A stretch of DNA of 64,000 bases from Prochlorococcus marinus str. MIT 0918 (GTDB taxonomy: Bacteria; Cyanobacteriota; Cyanobacteriia; PCC-6307; Cyanobiaceae): positions 1,510,764 to 1,574,763 of the forward strand of contig NZ_CP114780.1 of the NCBI RefSeq assembly GCF_027359415.1. Direction: 5' to 3'. A program made the translations under genes and the position numbers. The notes beneath the pieces are model-generated. The model ran no database searches, was not told the DNA's origin, and saw nothing but the letters and a program-made list of their open reading frames with translations. This document shows positions 29,247-38,526 of this stretch, piece after piece (the first letter of the stretch is position 1; each line of letters starts with the position of its first letter).

Positions 29247-30458
29247 ATGGATACTCAGGCTTTTAAAAGATCTCTACACCACTCTGATCGTTATAACCGG
29301 AGGGGATTTGAGTCCCCTGCAAAAAGAGCACAAGCTCTTGAGAAGGCATACCAAAGTAATTTAATTGCGTCAATTCGTGATAATGGATATTTATTAGAAC
29401 ATGGACGATTACGAGTGAAGCTTGCAGAAGCATTTGGTTTCTGTTGGGGTGTAGAAAGAGCAGTTGCAATGGCATATGAAACAAGGAGACATTATCCAAC
29501 TGAAAGCATTTGGATTACGAATGAAATTATTCATAATCCCTCAGTAAATGATCATTTAAGGCATATGAATGTACGTTTTATATCTGCAGAGAAGGGTGTG
29601 AAAGATTTCTCTTTAGTAGAAGAAGGTGATGTTGTGATTTTGCCAGCCTTTGGAGCAACAGTTCAAGAAATGAAACTTCTTCATGAAAGAGGCTGCCATA
29701 TTATTGACACGACATGCCCTTGGGTTTCAAAGGTCTGGCATACGGTAGAAAAACATAAGAAGCATCAATTCACATCAATTATTCATGGAAAGGTCAAACA
29801 TGAAGAAACTTTAGCCACTAGTTCATTTGCTGGTACATATCTTGTTGTTTTGGATCTAGAAGAAGCTCAATATGTGTCTAATTATATTTTAGGAGAAGGT
29901 AATAGAGATGACTTTTTGAGAAAGTTTTCGAAAGCTTCGTCACAAGGTTTTGATCCAGATAGAGATCTTAAAAGACTTGGAGTGGCAAATCAAACTACAA
30001 TGTTAAAGAGCGAGACTGAAGAGATAGGAAGGCTTTTTGAAAAAACTATGCTTCGCAAATATGGACCAGCAGATTTGAATGAGCATTTTTTAGCTTTTAA
30101 TACTATTTGCGATGCAACTGAAGAAAGACAAGATGCAATGTTTTCTTTAGTAGACGAACCACTTGACTTATTAGTAGTGATTGGAGGCTTTAATTCCTCT
30201 AATACTACTCATTTGCAAGAAATTGCTCTTAGCAAAGGTATTCGTTCCTTTCATATAGATACTCCTGAGCGAATTGGCGATGAGGACAATACTATTACCC
30301 ATAAACCTTTAGGAAATGTTCTTACAACTGAATCGAATTTTCTACCAGAAGGAGAAATTAATGTTGGGATTACTTCTGGAGCATCTACGCCAGATAGAAT
30401 AGTTGAGCATGTCATTCAGAAACTTATAAAACTTAGTACCAAGAAAGTTAAAAGTTGA
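29247..30458 (+). CDS. ispH: 4-hydroxy-3-methylbut-2-enyl diphosphate reductase
   Basis: IspH (LytB) performs the last step of the MEP pathway, making IPP and DMAPP for carotenoids, chlorophyll side chains and quinones. The 403-residue protein is of the longer cyanobacterial/plastid type. Cluster cysteines appear in [12 protein letters not shown] (C66), [11 protein letters not shown] and [15 protein letters not shown]. The glycine-rich [14 protein letters not shown] and the GASTPDR segments complete the active site. A TATAAA at 29233 could be its -10 box. Confidence 0.97.
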
Positions 30459-30602
30459 TATTGATTGTTTTAGATTCAATTAAGATAATGGACTTAATTT
30501 ATACAAACTGAGAATTAGAGATAAGCATAATAAAGAATTAAAATTTATTGTTTTAATCAAGTTTGCTTGTAAACAACTAATATATGTACCTGATGCTTAT
30601 AA

Positions 30603-31166
30603 ATGATGCCTGACTCTATCCAGCTTAACTCAGAGGAATCTCAATCTTCAAAAGCTAATCAATCGCAGAAGGTTGAAGTGGTTGTAGCAAGTCCAAATGA
30701 TGGTGAAGTTAATATTTTGGGAGAACTTGCGATTTTTATTCTTAGAGTTGGATTTAGTATTTTCATGATCCATCATGGCCTTGAAAAGTTTCAAGACCCC
30801 CAAGGCTTTGCAGAGTTTGTTGTTGGTAAATATTTTGGATTTCTTCCAGGAGATCCTGTTATATGGACTTTTGCTGCAGCTATTACTCAGATTGTATGCC
30901 CAATAGGACTTGCTTTAGGAATATTTGCAAGAATTTCTGCCTTGGGCCTTTTAAATACAATGCTTTTTGCAGTTTATTTTCACCTGGTTGATACAGGCTT
31001 AGAAGGATTTCCTTTGGCTGTTGTAGATGATCACAATTATGCTTTTGAGCTGTCTGCAATTTATGCTGCTATTTCTTTATACTTTTTATGTGCTGGTCCT
31101 GGAAGATTGTCTGCTTTTAGAAAGACTAATAAAGTAACCTATTATCCAAAGTCTAATGATAATTAA
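30603..31166 (+). CDS. DoxX-family membrane protein
   Basis: A 187-residue membrane protein with a hydrophilic N-terminus of about 40 residues and four hydrophobic segments. The first, ILRVGFSIFMIHHGLEKFQDP, is typical of the DoxX family (here residues about 47-67). Members are small quinone- or redox-associated membrane proteins of unclear function. It lies 144 bases after ispH; the gap holds a 7-bp inverted repeat at 30478-30499 that could be a weak terminator. Confidence 0.85.
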   Translation: MMPDSIQLNSEESQSSKANQSQKVEVVVASPNDGEVNILGELAIFILRVGFSIFMIHHGLEKFQDPQGFAEFVVGKYFGFLPGDPVIWTFAAAITQIVCPIGLALGIFARISALGLLNTMLFAVYFHLVDTGLEGFPLAVVDDHNYAFELSAIYAAISLYFLCAGPGRLSAFRKTNKVTYYPKSNDN

Positions 31167-31196
31167 TAGATTATTTTTATATGTTTAATTAAGACT

Positions 31197-32753
31197 TTAA
31201 TGTAAAAAATGTCTTCTACCAGTGAAAATCATGCTTAAATTTAATTCATTACAGGCATCGATTGATAGATTATCTTTTATACTTCCTCCAGGTTGAATAA
31301 TTGCACTGATTCCATATTTTGCTGCCAATCTTATGGTGTCATCAAAAGGGAAAAAACCATCACTTGCTAATACAGCATTATTTGCTTTTATCCCTGCTGC
31401 CTCCAGTGCTATTTTAGCTGCACCAATTCTATTCATTTGACCAGCCCCAATCCCTAGAGTTTGTCCAGAGGATGCAATTGATATGGCGTTTGATCTTATA
31501 TGTCTAACTACTTTCCAAGCAAAAGTTAAATCATTAATTTGTATTTTGCTTGGCTCCTTCCTTGTAACTACTTTCCAAGCATTTTCCTGGATTGGCTTAT
31601 CATCTAATTCCTGAACTATTACTCCCCCGAGTATACTTCTTACATTATGCTTGTCTGTTTTTTCTATTGAAATGGGGTCTAGTTCTATAAGTCTTAGATT
31701 TTTCTTTTCTGCCAAGACTGATTTAGCTTGATCATCAAAGTGTGGAGCAACTATGCATTCTAAAAATATACCTTTTAATTGAGATGCGGTTTTGAGATCT
31801 ACAGAGCAATTAAGTGCGACTATTCCTCCAAATGCACTTGTTCTATCGGCGTCTAGAGCTTTGCTAAATGCTGAGGATAATGAATTACTTATTCCAACTC
31901 CGCAGGGGTTAGTATGTTTAATGATAACTGCAGCATTATCACAATTTTGATTTTTGATGTTAGTGCCATATCCAAACTCCCTGATTGTTGATATTGCAGC
32001 TTCTAAATCTAAAAGATTATTTGTGCTCAGTTCTTTGCCTTGAATTTGTTTTGCTTCACCCCAGCCATGTCTTCTTGAGCTATACCAAGATGCTTTTTGA
32101 TGTGGGTTTTCTCCATAACGTAGCGTTTGTTTGAGAGGAGTAGATTGAATCCAAGGAGACTTCTTTTCTGGTTTTTTTGTTTGCATCCATCTAGCTATTG
32201 CTGCGTCATAGTCAGCAGTATGTTCAAAGGCTTCTAAAGCTAATTCAAACCGTATTTGTTTAGATACTTCTCCATTCTTTAAAGCGAGAAGGCAGTTTTC
32301 GTATTGACTTGGATTAGTTAAAACAATTACTGATTGATGATTTTTTGCTGCTGCACGTATCATTGTTGGCCCTCCAATATCAATATTTTCTAAGGCTTCT
32401 TCAAATAGGGTTTCAGGCTTTTCAATGGTTTCTTTAAAGGGATAAAGATTTACTACTACTAAATCAATGAAGGGAATATTTTGTTCCTTCAATTCAGACT
32501 GATGAGATGAATCTGATTTTTTCGCAAGAATTCCTCCATGAACTTTGGGATGCAGTGTTTTGACTCTCCCTCCTAGTATTTCTGGTGCACCAGTGAAATC
32601 TGAGATGCGGCTTACAGGAATAGATGCATCTTCTAATGCTTTTGCAGTTCCACCACTTGAGATTATTTGAAATTTAAATTCTTCAGTTAATGCCTTAGCA
32701 AAAGGCACTATCCCTTTTTTATTTGAAACGCTTAATAATGCAATTGGCGCCAT
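31197..32753 (-). CDS. purH: Bifunctional AICAR transformylase/IMP cyclohydrolase
   Basis: PurH performs the last two steps of IMP synthesis. The 518-residue protein has an N-terminal cyclohydrolase domain ([36 protein letters not shown]) and a C-terminal transformylase domain with [32 protein letters not shown] and SDGFFPFDD. The frame extends eight codons upstream to 32777, but the ATG at 32753 ([12 protein letters not shown]) matches the family. It is divergent from the esterase gene. Confidence 0.97.
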
Positions 32754-32812
32754 AAGAAAAAAATAAAAGCATCCCAAGGGTTAACTTACGCACCAGTGAA
32801 ACTATTTGCTTG

Positions 32813-33418
32813 ATGGAAGAGGATTTTTTTTGTATTACTTCTGAATTTGCAACTCATCGGTTGATTTTGCTTCATGGATGGGGTGCTGATGCTGATGATT
32901 TGCTCCCTTTAGGAGAGAATTTGGCCAATCTACTTGAGAAGAAAATTGAAATTATCTCTTTGAGAGCACCTGAAATGCACCCTCAAGGATTCGGGAGACA
33001 ATGGTATGGACTTTTTCCAGCAGATTGGAAGGCTGCTAAAAATGCTATTAATGATCTTCTAATTCGATTGAAGACACTTAATGACTCTCGAATACCTTTA
33101 GATAAAACAGTTCTCTTGGGATTCTCTCAAGGGGGAGCAATGGCATTAGCTGTTGGGTGTGAATTACCCTTAGCAGGCTTAATTGGTTGTAGCGCTTACC
33201 CTCACCCTGACCTGAATGTTCCTAAAAACAGCCCTTTAGTATTTTTATCTCATGGCCAATTTGATGAAATAGTCCCTATTGAGGCATCTCGAAAGTTATT
33301 AAAGTTATTTGAAAAACAAAATAACTTGGTTGAATTTCATTGTTTTGACGGAGGGCATGAAATACCTCAAATACTTTATGAAAATATCCGTATTTTTCTT
33401 GAAAGTTGTTTTAAGTAA
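32813..33418 (+). CDS. Alpha/beta-hydrolase (carboxylesterase/phospholipase family)
   Basis: A 201-residue serine hydrolase. The nucleophile elbow is GFSQGG, the aspartate is in HGQFDEIVP and the histidine in GGHEIP, giving a complete catalytic triad. The N-terminal LHGWGADADDLLPLG carries the oxyanion-hole HG. It resembles acyl-protein thioesterases and small carboxylesterases; the substrate is unknown. I prefer the ATG at 32813 to the codon just before it. Confidence 0.9.
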   Translation: MEEDFFCITSEFATHRLILLHGWGADADDLLPLGENLANLLEKKIEIISLRAPEMHPQGFGRQWYGLFPADWKAAKNAINDLLIRLKTLNDSRIPLDKTVLLGFSQGGAMALAVGCELPLAGLIGCSAYPHPDLNVPKNSPLVFLSHGQFDEIVPIEASRKLLKLFEKQNNLVEFHCFDGGHEIPQILYENIRIFLESCFK

Positions 33419-33431
33419 CCTTTGTTTTCAA

Positions 33432-33800
33432 TTAAACAAAAGCATATTCATACTCTTCTATCTCTTCCCAATCATCTGCAGTGAGTTCTAACCCTTCAAA
33501 CATATTGTGTTCGCCAACAGCTTCAACAATAGAACGTAAAGATGGGAAAAGGAAATGATTCTCTTCAGCATATTGAGCGCTAAATAATCCTTTCTCACCC
33601 CAGAAAAATCTATCTGTAGTATGTTCATTTCGTCGAACATTTACAACTGCAGGAGCATTAATAGTGGTTTCAGCAATGTACCTTCTAGCTGCTGTTACCG
33701 GCTTATATGAGCCTGTCTCAAGATGAAAAGTAGGGACATGTGCCATAACTCTTTGGCCAGCCAAACGCCTACGGCTAATTCTTTTACGTTTTTTTGACAT
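33432..33800 (-). CDS. DUF3155-family protein
   Basis: A 122-residue soluble protein fitting DUF3155, a cyanobacterial family of unknown function. A very basic N-terminus (MSKKRKRISRRRLAGQRV) suggests nucleic-acid or membrane contact. The middle has an RYIAETTINAPAVVNVRRNE segment and the end is strongly acidic (EEIEEYEYA). It is convergent with the esterase gene. Its promoter would lie in the structured 33.8-34.15 kb region. Confidence 0.85.
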   Translation of the reverse strand: MSKKRKRISRRRLAGQRVMAHVPTFHLETGSYKPVTAARRYIAETTINAPAVVNVRRNEHTTDRFFWGEKGLFSAQYAEENHFLFPSLRSIVEAVGEHNMFEGLELTADDWEEIEEYEYAFV

Positions 33801-34152
33801 GAGAAATGTCCCTTTAAATAGGAAAATGAATTAATATTTTGCGGCTGAAACTAATTAATAAAATTGCTGATTAAAAAGATTTAATTAGCAAATCAGCAGC
33901 TTAAATTTTTCTTTTAACAAGGAGTGTTAAAAAACAATTTAAATTAATTAGGAAGGCCTGATTCAGGGGACCCATCAACCTCTGATATAGCCTTAGAAGC
34001 ACCCTTTGGTGCAACTTTGCCGAATCAACCTTTTAACAGGGGCTTCTTTAATAGCCTATTAAAGGTGTTATCTGATATCTTAATACTTTTTCCAGATTTT
34101 TCAAGCAATTGTCGCTCTCATTTTGTCGTTCTTGGCCTGAAATCTAACCATT
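33801..34152. other. 352-nt intergenic region with five hairpins, possible small RNA
   Basis: No protein reading frame of note was found. Five inverted repeats follow one another: GCTGATT/AATCAGC (33866-33897), an 8-bp stem TTTTAACA/TGTTAAAA (33912-33932), CAGGGG/CCTCTG (33964-33984), GCACC/GGTGC (33999-34012) and an 8-bp stem CTTTAATA/TATTAAAG with a GCC loop (34046-34064). The stretch 33955-34070 is also richer in G and C than its flanks. It does not resemble SRP RNA, tmRNA or a known riboswitch by eye. Confidence 0.45.
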
Positions 34153-35268
34153 ATGCAGTTTTCGGATAGATTTTTAAATTTGGTTGACTTGCAGCTAAAG
34201 AGTTTTGACTCGTATGCAGGGATAGAACATATTGTTGTTTATGTAGCTAAGAATAATTCGAGCAATTCTCCATCTTTAGAGGTAATAGGCCAACGTCCAA
34301 AGAGGCTTAACAAGTTTTTAACCCCTCTAGAAAATGACCCTGAGGTTCGTGTTCCGTCACCTTTTCGGCGATGGTACCCTTTGCAAGAAGGGTCAATTCT
34401 TTTAGGAGTTCTTCGAGTAGAACGACTCCCCGCAGAACAGCATTGGCCAGAATCTCTTGACCATAGCTTGCAGGCAAGTGCCTCTGTGATTGCAAACTGC
34501 TTAAGTTTGGAGCTTGATCGCAAAAAACTTTTGAATGAGCTCAATCAGCAAAGAGACGATATTGGGATGCTTGTACATCAGTTAAAAAACCCTCTTGCTG
34601 CATTGAGAACCTATGCTCAATTACTTTTAAGGAAATTAGGCCCTGAGAGCAGTCATAGAGGTCTGGTTGAAGGCCTTTTAAGTGAACAAGAGCAGGTTGG
34701 GAAATATTTATTGTCATTAGATGAATTTACTCAGCCAAAATTAGTCTCTCAGTCCATTACCCCTTCTCGCTTGTTATTGCCCCCCTTAATTTCAAACGAG
34801 GAACCTATAGATTTATTGGCATTATTACGCCCATTGATCGATCGTGCAGAAGCAAATGCAAAACTTCAAGGTAGAAAATGGATAGGACCTGCAAATATCC
34901 CTGCCTGGATGAAAAAATTGAGACCAGCATCTGAAGGATTTATAGCTGAAATTGTCGCTAATCTTCTGGAAAATGCATTTAAATATAGTTCATCAAAATC
35001 ATCTATAGGCATTTGTTTTAGTAATGATGGAATTTGCGTATGGGATGATTCAGAACCTATTGATTTAGATGAAAGAGAAAAAATCTTTGAAAATGGTTTT
35101 AGAAGTAAAAAAAATCAAAACTCAGTTGGTTCGGGAATAGGCTTAAGCGTGGGTAGGAAATTAGCAAAACAATTTGGGGGTGAATTGAAATTAAATATAA
35201 ATCCATCTTCTTTTGACCAATCTCTGCCAAAGGTAGGGAATGCTTTTGTTATTAACTTGCAGGGATAA
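34153..35268 (+). CDS. Sensor histidine kinase, Hik2/chloroplast-sensor-kinase-like
   Basis: A 371-residue soluble two-component sensor. An N-terminal GAF-like region (residues about 1-120) is followed by a dimerisation helix with the phospho-acceptor histidine in LVHQLKNPLAALRTYAQLL (about residue 140), then an ATPase domain with N box ANLLENAFKYSS, D box VWDDSEPID and G box GSGIGLSVGRKLAKQFGG. The absence of membrane helices and the HQ(L/F)(K/R)NPL-ALRT box resemble Hik2, the cyanobacterial relative of the plant chloroplast sensor kinase. Its end overlaps cobS by 17 bases. Confidence 0.85.
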   Translation: MQFSDRFLNLVDLQLKSFDSYAGIEHIVVYVAKNNSSNSPSLEVIGQRPKRLNKFLTPLENDPEVRVPSPFRRWYPLQEGSILLGVLRVERLPAEQHWPESLDHSLQASASVIANCLSLELDRKKLLNELNQQRDDIGMLVHQLKNPLAALRTYAQLLLRKLGPESSHRGLVEGLLSEQEQVGKYLLSLDEFTQPKLVSQSITPSRLLLPPLISNEEPIDLLALLRPLIDRAEANAKLQGRKWIGPANIPAWMKKLRPASEGFIAEIVANLLENAFKYSSSKSSIGICFSNDGICVWDDSEPIDLDEREKIFENGFRSKKNQNSVGSGIGLSVGRKLAKQFGGELKLNINPSSFDQSLPKVGNAFVINLQG

Positions 35269-36031
35269 TAAATGCTATTAATGTAAGAACAAATGTTTCT
35301 ACTAATATCACTGAAGCTCCATAAGTGTCTCCGGTTTGTCCTCCAAGACAAAAAGCTAGGTAATTAGGAATTAGAATTGCAGGTATAATTCCTATCAAGG
35401 TTATAATTATCAGAAATATCTTGCTATTTTCATCAATATTTATGCTGACTAAATAAGATAGAATGCATGCAATACAAAAAACAGAAGGAATTGATTCTTT
35501 GACATTTCCTCCCCAAGTATCTTGATGGAACTTTGAAAAACCATTGCTATTTATGTATGGATAATTTCCTATTGCTATGATTTGAGAATATCTGCCCCAG
35601 AAACATGCTATTGGAATAGCGTAAATATATAGTAATTTAATTTTATATAATGCTGCTATTTGTAATGCTATATTAATAGTTAATGCCATAACACCTCCTG
35701 CTCCTACTCTGCTATCCTTCATTGCTTCAATAGATTTTTTTTTGCCAGCAGCTATCCCATCTGCTGTATCCATAAGACCATCGAAATGTAATCCTCCTGT
35801 TAGCCATAAATTAATAGATATGGCAATAAAAGGTAGGGATTCATAAGGCCAACCTAAATTAGATAAAAATAATAATATAGATATTTCAAATATCCCAATA
35901 AATAAACCTATGATAGGAGCAAAACGTGCAATTCCTGTGAATTTTGGTTTAACTAATGGGACTTTGGGTAAAATTGTATAAAAGACCCCAGCTCCGACAA
36001 GCTCTCTTAACCAATTAGGTGAAATCAGAAT
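35252..36031 (-). CDS. cobS: Cobalamin synthase (adenosylcobinamide-GDP ribazoletransferase), unusual start
   Basis: CobS, a membrane enzyme, joins adenosylcobinamide-GDP to the lower-ligand riboside in the last steps of cobamide synthesis. The frame contains RFAPIIGLFIG, LTGGLHFDGLMDTADGIAAG with metal-binding aspartates, and several hydrophobic segments. The first ATG (35773) lies within the conserved DGLMDTADG motif and cannot be the true start. The homologous frame continues upstream to a TAA at 36058-36056. Only ATT (36031, 36052) or CTG (36028) codons are available there, so the start at 36031 is approximate. A one-base T-run change would instead link to a TTG at 36066. Confidence 0.82.
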   Translation of the reverse strand: MLISPNWLRELVGAGVFYTILPKVPLVKPKFTGIARFAPIIGLFIGIFEISILLFLSNLGWPYESLPFIAISINLWLTGGLHFDGLMDTADGIAAGKKKSIEAMKDSRVGAGGVMALTINIALQIAALYKIKLLYIYAIPIACFWGRYSQIIAIGNYPYINSNGFSKFHQDTWGGNVKESIPSVFCIACILSYLVSINIDENSKIFLIIITLIGIIPAILIPNYLAFCLGGQTGDTYGASVILVETFVLTLIAFIIPAS

Positions 36032-36087
36032 AAAAAACCTCTTAAAAGAAATAGTTTATATAACAAAGTAGGTTGGAATAAGTTTAA

Positions 36088-37236
<1,149 letters not shown>

Positions 37237-37269
37237 TGTCATTTGCAAAAGTCCATTGATTATTTAGGG

Positions 37270-37413
37270 ATGGTATCGCTTACCTTCGATCTACTTGCTC
37301 AGTTGCCTGAGGCCTATCAAATTTATGCCCCAACGGTTGATGTGCTTCCTTTAATACCACTTCTGTTCTTTTTGCTTGTATTTGTTTGGCAAGCAGCAGT
37401 TGGATTCCGTTAA
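37270..37413 (+). CDS. psbK: Photosystem II reaction centre protein PsbK
   Basis: A 47-residue protein reading [20 protein letters not shown] then [20 protein letters not shown] and QAAVGFR. The mature part [19 protein letters not shown] and the terminal WQAAVGFR are the PsbK hallmarks. The first residues are a short leader that is removed. PsbK is a single-span subunit near CP43. It starts at the ATG at 37270 and ends with TAA at 37411, 33 bases after tgt. Confidence 0.96.
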
Positions 37414-37521
37414 ATCAGGGATCCTTAATCAAATTTAAGTTTTTTGGGATTGATTTAGTCTGTCCCTCTACTTTTTAGGTGTTATTTTTGCTTTTCTCTG
37501 TAATTTGAGTTAAAGCTAGTT

Positions 37522-38526
37522 TTATATTGGTTGATCTAGTGATAATCCTTCACCAGGTTTATCTACAGCTTTTTCAATTAAGTCAGCCAAAATTAATGCT
37601 CTTGATGCTTGTAGCCCATCTACAGCAGGTTTTTCAAGACCCCTAACACATTGGAGGAAATGTTCGAGTTCTGCATAAAGGGGCTCTATAGAGGTTGTAC
37701 TGACTTCTTCAACAAAACCATCTGTACGATAAAGCAGTTCTCCATGATCTGCTGAATACCATTCATGAGCTCTACGGTGAATATGCAGTGTGTGATTTAA
37801 GAAATCAGTTTCTACTAAGCTTTTTTTACAATGTGCACTTAAACTTCTTATTTTTCTGTGACTCATTTTGCTAGAAGTCAGACTAGCAATTACTCCATTT
37901 TCGAAACCAAGTGTTGCATTTACATAATCCATTGGTCCCTTACTACTGCATCCTCCAACCGCTGCGAGCCTTACAACTGGCGCATTTGCTAATTCAAGAA
38001 CTAAATCCAGATCATGAATCATAAGGTCATACACCACTGATACGTCATTGGCTCTGTCAGCATGAGGGCTATGTCGCCTTGCTTCTAGAACAACTACTTC
38101 TTCATCAGTAACAACTTTTGTTAGTTCTTTAAATGCAGGATTAAATCTTTCAATATGACCTACTTGAAGCAAACAATTAGCATTATTTGAGGCGTCTATG
38201 AGTTCTGAAGCTTCTTGTTGATTAGCTGCTATAGGTTTTTCTATAAGGACATGCTTGCCTGCTTTTAAACAATTTAGACCCACTTTGTGATGCAACAAAG
38301 TGGGTACGGCAATGCAGACTGCCTCGACTTCTTCTATTAGATCCTCATAGTTTTCGAACCATGAGCAATTAAATTGTTCTTTTGCTAAGTTCCCTCTCTC
38401 AGGATCCAAGTCTGCTACACCAACAAGCTCAGCGTCTTTAAGAAGACTTAAAACCCTTGCATGGTGCCAACCCATGTTTCCTATACCAATCACCCCAACC
38501 TTTACAGGAATCATGATGGGGTTCAT
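37522..38526 (-). CDS. Gfo/Idh/MocA-family oxidoreductase
   Basis: A 334-residue NAD(P)-dependent dehydrogenase. The Rossmann motif GVIGIGNMGWHHARVL lies at about residues 10-25. The catalytic lysine sits in the family motif HVLIEKPIA at about residue 92, and DLMIHDLDLVLEL gives the second active-site segment. Members oxidise or reduce sugars and related molecules; the substrate here cannot be told. Two nearby ATG codons (38526 and 38514) are both possible starts. It follows the CorC-like gene on the same strand with a 36-base gap. Confidence 0.88.
   Translation of the reverse strand: MNPIMIPVKVGVIGIGNMGWHHARVLSLLKDAELVGVADLDPERGNLAKEQFNCSWFENYEDLIEEVEAVCIAVPTLLHHKVGLNCLKAGKHVLIEKPIAANQQEASELIDASNNANCLLQVGHIERFNPAFKELTKVVTDEEVVVLEARRHSPHADRANDVSVVYDLMIHDLDLVLELANAPVVRLAAVGGCSSKGPMDYVNATLGFENGVIASLTSSKMSHRKIRSLSAHCKKSLVETDFLNHTLHIHRRAHEWYSADHGELLYRTDGFVEEVSTTSIEPLYAELEHFLQCVRGLEKPAVDGLQASRALILADLIEKAVDKPGEGLSLDQPI

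Follow-up and report, generated by a model that had tools for sequence, protein, structure and literature searches.

A conserved promoter-like element and a predicted structured 5' leader upstream of DUF3155 in picocyanobacteria

The DUF3155-kinase locus

The window analysed here is a stretch of 64,000 nucleotides from Prochlorococcus marinus str. MIT 0918, in which two divergent genes flank a gap at positions 33801-34152. On the minus strand lies a gene for a protein of 122 aa with a DUF3155 domain match (PF11352; 33432-33800), and on the plus strand a sensor histidine kinase gene (34153-35268), for which HisKA and HATPase_c were the only domains found. A first-pass annotation had described a hairpin-rich, relatively GC-rich region between these genes, in one of the few long gaps of the stretch, and this description is accurate. 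The gap is the window's fifth longest stretch free of ORFs of at least 90 aa, in a list whose longest entry is the window edge, and GC content is 0.448 across 33955-34070, as against 0.213 for 33861-33954, 0.341 for 34071-34152 and 0.361 for the window.

The inverted repeats are likewise present. They comprise a 12-nt repeat of 92% identity (33864-33875 with 33880-33891), an 8-bp repeat with a loop of 5 (33912-33932), a TCAGGGG/CCTCTGA pair at 33963-33985 and a GCACC/GGTGC pair at 33999-34012, both of which appear in the sequence as well as in the predicted fold, and the repeat CTTTAATAG-C-CTATTAAAG at 34046-34064. Two of the hairpins have perfect 8-bp stems, a number that is rare by chance (when 33861-34070 is dinucleotide-shuffled, 6 of 1000 versions have as many or more), and the fold of 33861-34075 is more stable than its shuffles on either strand (z of -3.11 on the plus and -2.95 on the minus strand; 2 of 200 shuffles as good on each).

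Conservation and distribution

Of 110 fetched loci, 103 contain both genes and the gap. With the other 7 and 18 duplicate gaps left out, 85 distinct gaps result; the 80 named loci are mostly from Prochlorococcus, and they include a single Cyanobium as well as a few assemblies that are unnamed or placed only to family level. Conservation across the gap is uneven, the hairpin-rich region being conserved only in part. One segment within it, designated motif A (33964-33994; AAGGCTATATCAGAGGTTGATGGGTCCCCTG in minus-strand letters), is kept at 0.95 identity to 12 close relatives and contains hairpin A, formed by pairing of 33964-33969 with 33979-33984. The AT-rich part of the minus-strand leader discussed below (33861-33947), which holds the first two hairpins of the earlier description, is poorly conserved (0.47 and 0.38 identity to the 12 relatives). 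The most strongly conserved segment, the core of motif B at 34077-34091 (0.99 identity to the 12 relatives, with 0.77 for the adjoining 34092-34104), falls outside the region that the first-pass annotation had delimited. Motif B was located in 82 of the 85 distinct gaps (at most 5 mismatches of 22), and motif A in 70 of 85 (at most 6 mismatches of 22).

Across a broader sampling of the family, the motif B core, ATYTTAAKACTTTTY, occurs without mismatch somewhere in 189 of 300 genomes, and its backward control in 22 of 300 rows by hand count; DUF3155 adjoins motif B in 69 of the 70 loci fetched from core-bearing genomes. Twenty family genomes were picked for absence of the exact core, and in all 20 the kinase adjoins DUF3155; among the same 20, motif A was found in 16 and motif B in 7, each at no more than 2 mismatches. 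These 20 core-less genomes, like the 40 stretches, the further 19 and the clade groups used for alignment folding and for comparing helices, are samples of our own choosing. In one of the 20 (L261) the gap separating the two genes is only ~138 nt long and carries neither motif.

With up to 3 mismatches allowed, the genome of the window holds a single copy each of motifs A and B, and the motif A core occurs elsewhere in 11 other genomes (at most 2 mismatches) about as often as its backward control, at 30 and 24 places respectively by hand count, so that no regulon is seen. On these grounds a multi-copy RNA or a regulon was rejected. The leaders of five loci (L046, L052, L171, L172 and L173) carry a tandem duplication of ~35 bp that comprises the motif A core and the adjacent hairpin unit, H2.

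A covariance model (R1) of the promoter plus leader, built from the Synechococcus-like genus described below, matches the window at 33959-34107 on the minus strand with an E value of 1.1e-9, the next match having an E of 0.2. It matches 159 of 201 family genomes and 50 of 59 genera, once per listed genome except for G133. The model includes the promoter, and its matches therefore show homology rather than a shared fold; taken as such, they place the promoter and predicted leader in most of the picocyanobacteria sampled. Rfam release 15 gave no match in window positions 30000-38000 up to an E of 5, nor in eight related loci up to an E of 1, in agreement with the earlier remark that no known RNA family is recognizable here.

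A predicted promoter reading toward DUF3155

Read on the minus strand, motif B (34077-34104) matches a promoter, with a -35 hexamer TTGAAA (34104-34099), a 16-nt spacer and a -10 hexamer TAAGAT (34082-34077). The hexamers score 9 of 12 matches in the promoter scan, and their spacing falls within the sigma-70-type range of 16-18 nt. Relatives keep this arrangement; variation in motif B consists of a -10 of TAAAAT and of insertions that lengthen the spacer to 17. Motif B is thus most likely, as judged from its sequence, a promoter reading toward DUF3155, on the strand opposite to that of the kinase. Transcription would begin ~7 nt downstream of the -10, near 34070 (plus or minus 3 nt, as estimated from the -10 position). 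On the plus strand upstream of motif A, the scan found no promoter and no conserved one was seen by eye. The conservation of the motif B spacer exceeds the need of a plain promoter, and GC-rich relatives have a weaker -35 and yet keep the spacer sequence AAAAAGT; a second factor besides polymerase may therefore also bind there.

We assign this promoter to DUF3155 because of its closeness and direction, and not because the kinase is absent from comparable loci. An argument that DUF3155 lacks a kinase neighbour outside the family was dropped, at a slight cost in confidence, since 16 of 30 outside loci (L183-L212) have a divergent kinase match upstream of DUF3155, with its start estimated at 383-879 nt away; in the other 14 no such match was found. 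The pairing of kinase and DUF3155 is accordingly older than the family, and gene order, with the kinase present in 20 of 20 family loci and 16 of 30 outside loci, cannot separate the two genes. Among these 14, the promoter pattern is matched in seven, and five carry the GTAN8TAC box considered next.

DUF3155 upstream regions outside the family

A sampling across the class found PF11352 in 76 of 77 genomes. In the last ~100 nt before DUF3155, the 30 outside loci frequently carry two elements. A strict promoter pattern lies 85-97 nt before the gene, in its direction, in 21 of the 30, and an NtcA-type GTA-N8-TAC box within 75 nt of the gene start in 20 of the 30, where shuffles give an expectation of 0.36; in most of these loci a strong ribosome-binding site separates the box from the gene. 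Among 73 non-redundant gaps of the family, 13 have GTAN8TAC after the -10. The GC content of these 13 ranges from 0.50 to 0.62 (mean of the other 60, 0.40), and the box is also present in 10 of the 20 family genomes without the exact motif B core and in 10 of 10 g10 sequences. The window is not among the 13, and no GTAN8TAC occurs near its predicted start.

The consensus site of NtcA is GTAN8TAC, and in genes that NtcA represses such boxes have been described on the downstream side of the -35 (PMC3898017). To judge from that description, some family members and 20 of the 30 outside loci resemble NtcA-repressed promoters in having the box at or after the predicted start, whereas the window, having no box, does not (PMC3898017). 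Where the box overlaps the start, the sequence suggests that nitrogen control should be added at the promoter, and DUF3155 outside the family may be an overlooked nitrogen-controlled gene. The box thereby offers a testable tie to nitrogen status in these relatives, an input that is absent from the window.

Architecture of the predicted leader

From the predicted start to the gene, the DUF3155 mRNA would carry a 5' leader of ~270 nt (33801-34070, minus strand), and among 73 relatives the predicted length ranges from 166 to 362 nt with a median of 285. These 73 were obtained by thinning 154 gaps at 88% identity, with L024 and L176 retained despite a weak motif A. From its 5' end, the window's leader contains a proximal hairpin with a 9-bp stem (34046-34064), in a part where clades differ in their helices; hairpin H2 (GCACC/GGTGC; 33999-34012), which corresponds to helix 2 in relatives; hairpin A within motif A; and, as read from the sequence, a ribosome-binding-site-like AAAGGG (33810-33815) upstream of the DUF3155 start. 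No conserved terminator was found between motif A and DUF3155, terminator-like sites occurring there in 15 of 73 relatives against 9.4 expected, and the scan of the window found none.

Covariation evidence for an RNA structure comes from one genus, that of G017, for which we infer the name Synechococcus-like. Its alignments (A1 and A2) hold 28 sequences, the most divergent row of an original 29 (L241) having been left out, and they share a three-helix minus-strand fold in which hairpin A is helix 3, H2 is helix 2, and helix 1, the counterpart of 34046-34064, has changes on both sides. This fold is 89.6% paired, includes 43 double-change cells (a number reached in 0 of 500 shuffles, whose mean is 17.2), and has a covariation of 0.239, as against 0.121 or less when slid. 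Of five measures, two are not clearly above shuffles, namely the number of pairs showing a double change and that of further pair types. Read on the plus strand, the same three helices are 85.4% paired with a covariation of 0.166. Two further genera supplied a second set, of 19 sequences, in which two helices are 81.4% paired (slid, at most 60.2%), and H2 and hairpin A show no covariation above shuffles. Compensatory changes, named by the first-pass annotation as a test of its RNA proposal, are supported in the genus of 28 sequences and do not exceed shuffles in the set of 19. Helices at the 5' end differ among clades, including the window's own, so that no single fold describes the family.

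Attempts to establish the strand by other means gave conflicting results across the family. Folding z-scores do not separate the strands (27 of 49 better on plus), alignment folding favours plus in three of five groups, and folding alone was accordingly set aside as a means of settling the question. Wobble pairs, when judged by eye, at first seemed to point strongly to the minus strand, a conclusion that was withdrawn because the test is biased by which letters the conserved arm contains; subject to this bias, the counts favour plus for hairpin A (36 vs 13 in 69 sequences, the 4 of 73 whose hairpin A is weak having been dropped) and minus for H2 (15 vs 3 in 43 sequences, after 30 of 73 without an anchored H2 were dropped). 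We therefore base the strand assignment on the promoter, to which the pair counts within the genus lend support.

Interpretation and alternative explanations

We favour, at a probability of about 0.65, the reading that the region comprises the DUF3155 promoter followed by a long, structured 5' leader on the minus strand that probably acts after initiation. RNA polymerase would start near 34070 from TTGAAA-N16-TAAGAT (34104-34077), the ~270-nt leader would fold into hairpins around the conserved segment, and the transcript would then run into DUF3155. The leader would probably tune DUF3155 output after initiation, at the level of translation or of mRNA stability, and control is perhaps mediated by a protein that binds the conserved leader segment. 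We hold more tentatively, as possible and still rather doubtful, that the leader is a new cis-regulatory RNA of picocyanobacteria (Prochlorococcus, Synechococcus and Cyanobium) that senses a protein or metabolite, controls DUF3155, and has replaced the shorter leader found behind the NtcA-type box of other cyanobacteria.

A transcribed, structured RNA is plausible in view of the one-genus covariation, but its helices could be functionless if the region acted solely as a DNA control element, with motif B, the NtcA-type box and an inverted repeat at motif A serving as protein-binding sites. This is unlikely, even though several features point to it: the sequence of motif A is conserved beyond the needs of pairing, the arms of hairpin A are near-symmetric in many relatives, an inverted repeat surrounds motif A in some of them (CAGCAGAGG-N9-CCTCTGCTG), GTAN8TAC is itself a DNA site, and the 19-sequence set lacks covariation. 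The helices nevertheless covary in one genus beyond both shuffled and slid controls, motif A is farther downstream of the predicted start (76-106 nt) than is usual for an operator, and its core defines no regulon. Transcription in the opposite direction, which would yield a plus-strand small RNA or the kinase mRNA leader that the first-pass annotation had offered as one option, is quite unlikely. The kinase is an old divergent neighbour, the distance from motif B to its start is steady at 42-67 nt (82 of 85 gaps with motif B located), and the hairpin A wobbles and most groups in alignment folding lean toward the plus strand; against this, motif B points the opposite way, the plus strand upstream of motif A has no promoter by eye or by scan, the pair counts within the genus are better on minus, and the H2 wobbles also favour minus.

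The separate small RNA of the earlier proposal, by which we mean an independent trans-acting RNA that would be transcribed from motif B and end before DUF3155, is less likely than the leader and, in our estimate, very unlikely in itself. A promoter and a structured RNA are present, as in small RNAs, and on the minus strand the AT-rich hairpin at 33864-33891 is followed by TTTTATT. However, no terminator is conserved on the DUF3155 side, and a 2005 screen for cyanobacterial ncRNAs bears on the same point. Table 1 of that study lists cluster 217, one MED4 sequence of 153 nt with Z of -1.63 and -4.28, whose flanking genes are said to encode a two-component sensor histidine kinase on one side and a conserved hypothetical protein on the other (PMC1242208). 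As matched by this description rather than by coordinates, it is probably the same DUF3155-kinase gap in MED4. Its entry in the experimental column is '-', a sign that the legend leaves undefined and that also stands on an rpoBC leader stated to be untested, and according to the text MED4 candidates were probed on both strands (PMC1242208). The table entry does not interpret cluster 217 as a DUF3155 promoter and leader; if the match is right, promoter and leader probably explain this ncRNA candidate of 2005. The Prochlorococcus RNAs Yfr1-Yfr21 resemble the leader in being structured and intergenic, and the DUF3155 leader differs from them, as they are presented there, in having no conserved terminator (PMC1242208, PMC2518516). 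Among the Yfr1-Yfr21 entries considered, none names kinase and DUF3155 genes as neighbours, and the table for Yfr8-Yfr21 gives other ones (PMC1242208, PMC2518516).

Possible roles of the leader and of DUF3155

The unusually conserved promoter and predicted leader suggest tight control of DUF3155 dose in very streamlined phototrophs. Autogenous bacterial mRNA leaders of the ribosomal-protein type are long and structured, and the protein encoded after them is small, highly conserved and basic at its N-terminus. By analogy, the predicted DUF3155 leader may be compared with them in being long, structured and placed before a small conserved protein. An AlphaFold2 model of DUF3155 has low confidence (mean pLDDT 57.3, pTM 0.47). 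DUF3155 is a small protein whose N-terminus is basic, and an alignment of 22 family members shows no variation over its residues 54-88, which is unusual for a protein of unknown function; these properties make autoregulation by DUF3155 itself attractive, as a guess founded on the analogy.

A coding role for the gap was also considered and rejected, as its short ORFs are not kept among relatives. The same applies to a short frame beginning MGPL that would be read from an AUG following AGAGGUUG in the leader, which by eye varies in length and is missing in other clades. In the window, the stretch concerned is 33901-33976 on the minus strand, where AGAGGUUG-AUG would open this frame, as it would in the leaders of both LL and HL Prochlorococcus.
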